Shown piece after piece: positions 54,514-56,037 of a stretch of 64,000 nt of DNA. Below the pieces are notes generated by a model, which did no database searches, was not told the origin of the DNA, and was given only the letters and a program-made list of their open reading frames with translations. Position 1 is the stretch's first letter. Every line of letters begins with the position of its first letter. The stretch lies in NCBI RefSeq assembly GCF_036568125.1, contig NZ_DATCTF010000014.1, forward strand, positions 62,001 to 126,000, in the 5' to 3' direction. Origin of the DNA: Magnetovibrio sp. GTDB lineage: Bacteria > Pseudomonadota > Alphaproteobacteria > Rhodospirillales > Magnetovibrionaceae. Position numbers and translations under genes: made by a program.

Positions 54514-54590
<77 letters not shown>

Positions 54591-54740: not shown

Positions 54741-54820
54741 AGAAAAAGGCCGGTTGTTCAACAACCGACCAAAGTTTAAGTGCTCTTGAGGGTAGGGAAG
54801 AGCTCAAAGGAGCCCGCCTG
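54741..54820 (-). ncRNA. Candidate small RNA, tandem copy 1
   Basis: Read on the minus strand: a 5' hairpin GGGCTC-CTTT-GAGCTC (54815-54800), a single-stranded segment TTCCCTACCCTCAAGAGCAC then TTAAACTTT (54799-54771), and a terminator hairpin GGTCGGTTG...CAACCGGCC (54770-54748) with TTTTTC. The non-Watson-Crick pair in each stem is G-U on this strand but A-C on the plus strand, which supports minus transcription. The middle segment matches copy 2 at 26 of 27 aligned bases. The exact 5' end is inferred; no clear -10 box was seen. Confidence 0.65.
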
Positions 54821-54853
54821 CAAATAACCTTCACACGTGCCCCCATGCGGTGC

Positions 54854-54869
54854 TGTGACGTTGATCACA
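54854..54869. promoter_or_regulatory. CRP-type site TGTGA-N6-TCACA upstream of sRNA copy 1
   Basis: Both half-sites match the CRP/GlxR consensus exactly. The centre is 46.5 bases before the first base of the copy 1 hairpin, a position suited to activation at the promoter. Confidence 0.6.
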
Positions 54870-54875
54870 CCAGCC

Positions 54876-54958
54876 CCCAAAAAAAGCCGACTGCAACAGC
54901 AGTCGGCTAAAGTTTGTGCTCTTGAGGGAAGGGAAGGGTTCGACATGAACCCATCCAC
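54876..54958 (-). ncRNA. Candidate small RNA, tandem copy 2
   Basis: Read on the minus strand: hairpin GGGTTC-ATGTC-GAACCC (54952-54936), segment TTCCCTTCCCTCAAGAGCAC then AAACTTT (54935-54909), and a perfect 10-base-pair terminator AGCCGACTGC-TGTT-GCAGTCGGCT (54908-54885) with a T-run to about 54878. Order, spacing and the middle segment copy the first RNA, while the stems differ in sequence but still pair. The C/U-rich part (CCCTTCCCT) could bind Shine-Dalgarno sequences. The 5' end is inferred. Confidence 0.68.
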
Positions 54959-54991
54959 ACACACACTTTGACTCTTTTGCGCGCCGCCGGC

Positions 54992-55007
54992 TGTGACGAC
55001 TGTCACA
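54992..55007. promoter_or_regulatory. CRP-type site TGTGA-N6-TCACA upstream of sRNA copy 2
   Basis: Perfect half-sites, centred 47.5 bases before the copy 2 hairpin, nearly the same spacing as at copy 1. On the minus strand both sites are followed by GC after TCACA. Confidence 0.6.
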
Positions 55008-55133: not shown

Positions 55134-55487
55134 ATGAGCGAAGCACACACAGACGACTACAAAAAAATGATGAACCAAAAGCGGTTTCTCAACGAAATCG
55201 AACAAGGTATTCGGATCGCCAACCGCGAAATCATCCACAAACGCATTCCCACACTGAGCAAAGACACCGTTTTGTCGTTCGCGGTCGCCATCGCACGTCT
55301 GCGCACGCGGTATCTGGAAGCCTCGTTCCGCGCTGCCGATGCCGATCACGGCGAAGCGCTGACGCCAGACGAAATCGAAGAGCTGCGTATGCACCGCGAA
55401 GCCTATGAAGAGACCAAAAAAGCTTTCGAGGCCCTGCGTTACGCCATCGAGCAAGGTTATGTCGATGTCGAAATGAGTGAAGAGTAA
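55134..55487 (+). CDS. Small helical protein of unknown function
   Basis: The 117-residue cytoplasmic protein is almost entirely helical and charged, with MMNQKRFLNEIEQGIRIANR, LSFAVAIARLRTRYLEASFR and EAYEETKKAFEALRYAIEQG segments that could form a helical bundle. I know no matching family. GGGAG eight bases upstream fixes ATG 55134 over in-frame ATGs at 55101 and 55119. Confidence 0.72.
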   Translation: MSEAHTDDYKKMMNQKRFLNEIEQGIRIANREIIHKRIPTLSKDTVLSFAVAIARLRTRYLEASFRAADADHGEALTPDEIEELRMHREAYEETKKAFEALRYAIEQGYVDVEMSEE

Positions 55488-55755: not shown

Positions 55756-56037
55756 TTAGGCCACAGCCGCGCGGCCGTCGTCGGTCAATTTGCAGACGAT
55801 CCAATCGGGTTTGAGCGGATTGGAAAACCACGGTTCCGCCCAACCTTTTTCAATGCAACTGCGCACCGTGCGCTCGCTGACCTGCTGACCGTCGCCGTCG
55901 AACAGCGGCAGCTTGCCGCCGGGCTGGTCGAGACCGCGCACCAGCCAGGCGTGCTGGGCCTGGGTCGGCGTGGCTTTAGTGCCGTGCCCCGTCGGCTTGG
56001 TCTTTTTGTCTTGAGCGGTTTCACTGAGCGCTGGCAT
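55756..56037 (-). CDS. Small protein with winged-helix-like C-terminus
   Basis: The 93-residue protein has a polar, Lys/Thr-rich first 25 residues. A domain follows with WLVRGLDQPGGKLPLFD, VSERTVRSCIEKGWAEPW and ending VCKLTDDGRAAV, a pattern typical of a short winged helix. AGGAG lies about ten bases before the ATG. I cannot give a function. Confidence 0.6.
   Translation of the reverse strand: MPALSETAQDKKTKPTGHGTKATPTQAQHAWLVRGLDQPGGKLPLFDGDGQQVSERTVRSCIEKGWAEPWFSNPLKPDWIVCKLTDDGRAAVA

Follow-up and report, generated by a model that had tools for sequence, protein, structure and literature searches.

Background and overall reading

CRP centred at -41.5 occupies the class II position, and the recognition helix of Escherichia coli CRP has the form R-E-x-x-x-R. 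Spot 42 of enterobacteria is a metabolism-tuning sRNA that is repressed by cAMP-CRP. A CRP homologue of Rhodospirillum centenum, CgrA, protects TGTGA-N6-TCACA in footprints and uses cGMP as its ligand, according to the accessible part of its report (PMC4681086). Pairing at ribosome-binding sites has been reported for the AbcR and NmsR RNAs in the accessible parts of two further papers (PMC3712013, PMC5362039).

A locus of Magnetovibrio sp. is described here from the window, i.e., the whole 64-kb stretch of DNA analysed. The best explanation of the locus, with a probability of roughly 75%, is that it contains two sibling CRP-activated sRNAs with an anti-Shine-Dalgarno core, which belong to a family that appears to have descended vertically in the Rhodospirillales.

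The two units in the window

Two homologous sRNA units had been proposed on the minus strand in an initial annotation, and both are present where they were placed (~54743-54820 and ~54878-54958). The common plan given for them was borne out: a 5' hairpin is followed by a C/U-rich core that is unpaired (CUUCCCUCAAGAGCAC..AAACUU) and then by a terminator. Each unit was said to lie behind a perfect TGTGA-N6-TCACA, and the only two perfect sites of the window are indeed these two. The features of the locus are as follows.

54992..55007, minus strand: CRP-type palindrome of copy 2, TGTGACAGTCGTCACA on the minus strand; spacing kept in homologues
54965..54970, minus strand: predicted -10 hexamer of copy 2 (CAAAGT); predicted start ~54958
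54878..54958, minus strand: putative sRNA copy 2, ~80 nt; ends predicted
54932..54956, minus strand: 5' hairpin of copy 2 (folds, covariation)
54909..54931, minus strand: unpaired core of copy 2, CTTCCCTCAAGAGCACAAACTTT (folds, alignment)
54885..54908, minus strand: intrinsic terminator stem-loop of copy 2, then T-run (fold and terminator call)
54854..54869, minus strand: CRP-type palindrome of copy 1, TGTGATCAACGTCACA on the minus strand
54827..54832, minus strand: predicted, poor -10 hexamer of copy 1 (GAAGGT); predicted start ~54820
54743..54820, minus strand: putative sRNA copy 1, ~78 nt; ends predicted
54794..54819, minus strand: 5' hairpin of copy 1 (folds)
54771..54793, minus strand: unpaired core of copy 1, ACCCTCAAGAGCACTTAAACTTT (folds)
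54748..54770, minus strand: intrinsic terminator stem-loop of copy 1, then T-run (fold and terminator call)
54514..54590, plus strand: tRNA-Pro (GGG), convergent neighbour
55134..55487, plus strand: divergent neighbour gene of 117 aa, given as context outside the RNA genes; no Pfam or NCBIfam match

The sequence CCCTCAAGAGCAC is found at 54780-54792 in copy 1 and at 54916-54928 in copy 2, and terminator-like hairpins with T-runs occupy 54770-54748 and 54908-54885 of the minus strand. Four terminator-like sites (both strands counted) were called in a 551-base stretch, compared with a mean of 0.6 in shuffles. The fold of copy 2 gave a z of -6.0 against its own shuffles (0 of 200), whereas the fold of copy 1 is weaker and marginal (z -1.9, 8 of 200 shuffles; -1.65 with more flank). 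An E. coli-type sigma-70 promoter scan of the locus found no promoter and hence lends no independent support to one; such a result would be expected of a promoter in which an activator stands in for the -35 element. The arrangement exceeds chance, as the same layout recurs in dozens of genomes.

Distribution of the family

BLAST with the sRNA pair gave matches in 17 of 60 genomes, including the window's own. The exact pattern CCCTCAAGAGCAC..AACTTT, searched over the order, is too strict and was found in only three of 199 genomes. An exact scan of named genomes yielded 25 stretches, which are labelled Rhodospirillales or Rhodospirillaceae (15), Magnetovibrio (3), Alphaproteobacteria (3), Proteobacteria (3) and Rhodobacterales (1); the sole Rhodobacterales-labelled stretch is counted within the Rhodospirillales here (as G023). 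Magnetovibrio blakemorei MV-1, which belongs to the same genus as the window, is among the 25 with one copy.

The covariance-model search of the Rhodospirillales that had been proposed as a check yielded family members at E<=0.01 in 78 of 297 genomes. The model (R1) comprises 48 positions from hairpin 1 and the core and was built from 17 sequences; it was confined to these parts because alignment of the whole unit misplaced the terminators. Its seed alignment (A3) leaves out G008a, G008b, G043 and G074, which were misaligned in the preceding alignment (A2), as well as G021, and the first four were regained through the model. Matches of at least 29.5 bits come from 59 genomes in ten families of the order by our own count. 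The strong set used below consists of 62 hits of at least 28 bits and does not include G063, G120, G209 and G234, which are among the 59 genomes. When 385 genomes of the class were searched, 10 matched R1; only the match in the window's own genome is strong, the other nine have E-values of 4e-4 or worse, and nothing convincing was found outside the order in this set.

The matches of 19-28 bits form a mixed group: some have the palindrome and a terminator and others neither. The match in G021 (23.5 bits) falls outside the 62-hit set, yet it has both. This locus (L023, 1303-1560) contains ~80 extra nucleotides between the palindrome and the core and would represent a longer RNA variant, in which the first hairpin directly follows the predicted start and a crp-like gene lies just upstream.

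Neither in the window nor in 20 homologous loci did any Rfam family other than tRNA attain its gathering score. Neither a CRP-controlled sRNA of Rhodospirillales in the open-access literature nor any description of such an sRNA family was met, most subscription papers being outside the scope of the search. Judged from sequence comparison, the sRNA family is real and apparently new, with no Rfam model, of a known kind, and with unusually clear conserved CRP-type control.

Stem conservation and strand

Homologues with unconserved stems had been named as the observation that would speak against the units, and the opposite was found, since hairpin 1 covaries across homologues. In the seed alignment, six of the 11 pairs of hairpin 1 are changed on both sides, and the covariation score was reached by none of 500 shuffles. 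Among the 62 hits (57 distinct rows), nine of the 11 pairs are changed on both sides and again 0 of 500 shuffles reach the score, but these 57 rows were aligned to the model and are therefore biased toward it. Shifting the partners by one column lowers their covariation score from 0.335 to 0.171 or 0.101, although 8 and 5 pairs remain changed on both sides after such shifts. Columns 4/51 of the hairpin are unpaired in most rows. The segment CCCTCAAGAGCA is invariant in 22 of 22 rows, while the stems vary. A conserved peptide within the RNA was considered and dropped on reading of the alignment, in which no start codon is conserved.

As had been stated, the two wobble positions claimed for copy 1 (54814/54801 and 54768/54750) read G-U on the minus strand, whereas the plus strand has A/C there. 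Hairpin 1 contains 76 G-U pairs compared with 16 A-C cells. Folds of 60 terminator regions contain 65 G-U pairs for the RNA strand compared with 14 for the opposite strand, and the better fold is that of the RNA strand in 39 regions and that of the opposite strand in 20. The minus strand is considered settled because of the G-U excess and the T-runs, with the caveat that the rows were fitted to the model. The family, its strand, its structure and its promoter geometry are all established by comparison among homologues.

Gene surroundings and copy history

In the window's family, the sRNA gene is located between tRNA-Pro and the 55134-like gene. Other families share blocks of genes around the sRNA gene, although not all of them do (e.g., G115 differs). 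One side of the blocks carries genes that we take, by reading, to be ihfA- and merR-like. The other side carries a small conserved gene and what are presumably cutA-, response-regulator- and ispDF-like genes, sometimes with a STAS or ferredoxin-like gene. Because blocks of gene order are common across families, the sRNA family appears to have been inherited vertically within the Rhodospirillales. The small conserved genes 55756-56037 (minus strand) and 55134-55487 (plus strand) adjoin the locus and have no Pfam match; relatives of the former also occur close to the sRNA gene in other families. In several families a STAS (anti-sigma antagonist) paralogue likewise lies near the sRNA gene (L328, L330, L335, L343, L346 and L329), which says little on targets because the stretch is one of conserved gene order.

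The tandem pair of the initial annotation holds for five of ten genomes of the window's family, where copies lie side by side (G000, G003, G008, G013 and G017), but not for most homologues, which are single hits. In G003, G013 and G017 each copy has the other as its nearest relative (identity 0.80, 0.93 and 0.84, respectively); there is a tie in G008 (0.76), and in the window the copies are not each other's closest relatives (0.71). The closeness of sister copies in the first three genomes suggests repeated duplication or gene conversion of the sRNA copies. The two hits of G127 lie at contig ends, on two contigs, and may be a split pair or one copy found twice.

Promoter geometry and candidate regulator

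Upstream DNA was excluded from the covariance model, and at least 70 nt of it is available for 61 of the 62 strong hits (L095 was lost at a contig end). A palindrome with at most one mismatch lies within 100 nt in 58 of these 61 hits (48 perfect), compared with 3 of 2601 background windows elsewhere in the same loci. The three hits that have no palindrome within one mismatch are L087, which has two mismatches, and L091 and L093 (G176, second copy), which have none within two mismatches. Alignment of 58 distinct promoters on the palindrome centre gave the consensus TGTGAYG..CRTCACA and a second block, roughly CATAAT, at offsets 29-34 (A at 30 in 52 promoters and T at 34 in 55); conservation is low where a -35 element would be expected. 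With the last T counted as -7, the start is at offset 41, and the palindrome is thereby centred at -41.5. The class II layout of a palindrome at -41.5, a -10 hexamer and no -35 element is thus seen in the 58 aligned promoters, with the start placed from the -10 block.

The CRP-type control suggested at the outset is supported, as a prediction, by the conservation of the palindrome and the -10 across homologues. The distance of 46.5 or 47.5 bases reported with it is true of the hairpin; relative to the start predicted from the conserved -10, the palindrome lies at -41.5 instead. Copy 1 may be the weaker gene because it has only GAAGGT at -10, compared with CAAAGT in copy 2.

Perfect TGTGA-N6-TCACA sites are rare in the genome of the window (assembly of 3.39 Mb), occurring in four places, two of which are the sRNA genes. 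The remaining two adjoin a hemerythrin-domain gene and a periplasmic-binding-protein-like gene (the latter named by reading only). The hemerythrin-domain gene is likely a second member of the regulon. A perfect palindrome is found upstream of this gene in both Magnetovibrio genomes (L288 1501 = C10:575623; L290 = G004 C10:24197).

Four proteins of the window's genome score over the Crp-type HTH cut-off. One of them, L170, contains a cyclic-nucleotide-binding domain and the helix TTRETVARV, and its best PDB relatives include CRP/FNR-family structures. The orthologue of L170 in G021 (62% identical) ends ~45 bp before the palindrome of the sRNA gene. Orthologues of L170 (E<=1e-60) were detected in all 30 RNA-positive genomes of a chosen set and in 23 of its 30 RNA-negative ones (own count), which is consistency rather than proof because the sampled genomes are related. 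As CgrA uses cGMP, the signal at the Magnetovibrio sRNA genes may be cAMP or cGMP. Control of the cAMP/CRP type, as first suggested, therefore stands as to the CRP-type site and the homologue, with either cAMP or cGMP as the possible signal.

The core and its possible targets

The core is C/U-rich, unpaired in the folds and complementary to GAGGGAAG-type Shine-Dalgarno sequences (GAGGGAA type), and by analogy with known sRNAs it would likely repress translation by anti-Shine-Dalgarno pairing. No convincing conserved mRNA target was found among the leaders and genomes compared, and none recurred across families. A search for GAGGGAA-N-ATG in seven genomes gave at least three recurring genes among the matches listed (STAS, MlaD-like and RecJ-like). 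Conservation of the MlaD-like site proves little because the site lies inside an upstream reading frame. The pattern CTCTTGAGG-N-ATG occurs at 75 sites in 34 genomes compared with 27 for the reversed pattern (own sums), an excess that includes some of the sRNA genes themselves and that ribosome-binding sites alone may give. One of these sites (G001:C379) immediately follows the STAS gene. In G006 the leader of the crp homologue contains GAGGGAAG, and in G000 it has nothing comparable.

The best lead is the leader of the anti-sigma-antagonist (STAS) gene, which lies upstream of further transport-like genes, presumably of the Mla type. This leader pairs with the core over 10-11 nt in four of ten genomes; it reads CTTGAGGGAA in G000 and G002, CTTGAGGGAAG in G001 and, with a change that preserves a G-U pair, CTTGGGGGAA in G004. 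Shorter pairing was found in G003 and G017 (8 nt), G007 and G013 (7 nt) and G005 and G008 (6 nt). Only two of 41 unselected leaders have at least 10 nt paired. The duplex energies of the STAS leaders rank 4 to 106 of 212 leaders, many of which come from loci picked by the same pattern. In our judgement the STAS leader is a possible target, although the odds are against it.

Alternative explanations

The palindromes and stem-loops could belong to the neighbouring genes, the former serving the divergent gene 55134, whose start is ~134 bp from the palindrome centre of copy 2, and the latter being terminators or leaders of the flanking genes. This is scarcely credible, as the flanking genes vary across families while the spacing of palindrome, -10, hairpin, core and terminator is constant; moreover, with a terminator of its own at the end and a tRNA gene on the plus strand facing it, a unit has no gene to lead into. 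The palindromes could also be bound by a CRP/FNR-family protein of the genome other than the cyclic-nucleotide-binding one, given that three further Crp-type HTH proteins are present and two of them, L171 and L169, also carry the R-E pair in the helix. However, the helix of L170 contains R-E-x-x-x-R in full and the L170 orthologue is next to the sRNA gene in G021, and another regulator is regarded as quite improbable.

A different reading accepts the sRNA genes and their CRP control and has the core sponge another sRNA or bind a protein. The invariant CCCTCAAGAGCA extends well past the anti-Shine-Dalgarno element, no target is shared across families, and Caulobacter CrfA, once thought to pair with mRNAs, sponges the alpha-r8 siblings SisA-D according to the accessible part of the report (PMC12559287). 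On the other hand, a C/U-rich, unpaired core that is complementary to GAGGGAA-type sites resembles what the accessible parts of the papers on AbcR and NmsR describe, and a sponge or protein-binding role is considered unlikely. It is very improbable that the units are divergent members of alpha-r8 (MmgR/SisA-D, RF00519), a candidate family that was rejected on score, motif and the presence of separate copies. RF00519 is the best sub-threshold Rfam match of both units and has the same plan of hairpin, C-rich segment, ACUUU and terminator, but the scores are 30.0 and 21.2 bits against a gathering score of 41 bits, and another place in the window's genome scores 30.8 bits. The alpha-r8 10-mer UUUCCUCCC is missing in both units and present in seven of eight RF00519 loci examined (all except L277). 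Six genomes (G021, G026, G043, G068, G106 and G115) carry the new sRNA together with a motif-bearing alpha-r8 copy elsewhere, and these six copies have no CAAGAGC core and no palindrome within one mismatch in the 150 nt upstream.

Proposed mechanism and significance

In the preferred reading, that of two CRP-activated anti-Shine-Dalgarno sRNAs, the locus would encode two sibling trans-acting RNAs of ~80 nt each. A cyclic-nucleotide-bound CRP homologue on the palindrome would activate in the class II manner and substitute for a -35 element, and transcription would start 41-42 bp downstream of the palindrome centre. The RNA is predicted to fold into the 5' hairpin and the terminator hairpin, exposing ~20 unpaired nucleotides (CUUCCCUCAAGAGCACAAACU), which probably pair with GAGGGAA-type Shine-Dalgarno regions of several mRNAs and would thereby block translation. 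A rise in cAMP or cGMP would thus turn selected genes off after transcription. That an L170-type CRP homologue binds the palindromes, that the RNA is made and that anti-Shine-Dalgarno pairing acts is what we infer.

A wider reading, in which the sRNA is an ancient and principal output of the cyclic-nucleotide receptor in Rhodospirillales, is put forward because two of the four perfect sites in the window's genome belong to the sRNA genes; it is doubtful. If it is true, cAMP or cGMP would act mainly via one RNA core on translation and not via a large transcriptional regulon. The present reading would add to the Rhodospirillales an sRNA family with a probable regulator and promoter, and would provide a direct handle on cyclic-nucleotide action in this order. 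Magnetovibrio blakemorei MV-1, as a named strain with one copy, makes it experimentally testable.

Comparison with known sRNA systems

CRP acts on an sRNA gene both in Spot 42 and, by prediction, in Magnetovibrio, repressing the former and occupying an activating class II position in the latter. The CgrA regulon of R. centenum shares the same palindrome, and the accessible main text of its report does not contain the word sRNA (PMC4681086).

The alpha-r8 RNAs, as described in the accessible part of the source, resemble the units in being short alphaproteobacterial sRNAs with a 5' hairpin, an unpaired C-rich motif and a terminator, sometimes with several siblings per genome (PMC12559287). They differ in the core, in their location at other loci of the same genomes and in having no CRP-type palindrome. 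Upstream of several alpha-r8 RNAs (L255, L256, L258, L260 and L261), a common box around TGCAGTGCAGCA or similar is found at ~40-60 nt, perhaps the site of another regulator.

AbcR1 and AbcR2 (alpha-r15) of Rhizobiales are likewise tandem homologous sRNAs that form independent units and have an anti-Shine-Dalgarno motif. The accessible part of their description places UCCUCCC in the 5' loop of a three-hairpin RNA (PMC3712013), whereas UCCUCCC is missing from the units of the window and the core lies between two hairpins. Alpha-r15 is not among the seven Rfam matches obtained up to E 10. NmsRA and NmsRB of Neisseria differ in being betaproteobacterial, in having three stem-loops and in their link to RelA and the stringent response; the likeness, drawn by description only from the accessible part of the report, is that of two tandem siblings that expose a UC-rich anti-Shine-Dalgarno sequence (PMC5362039).
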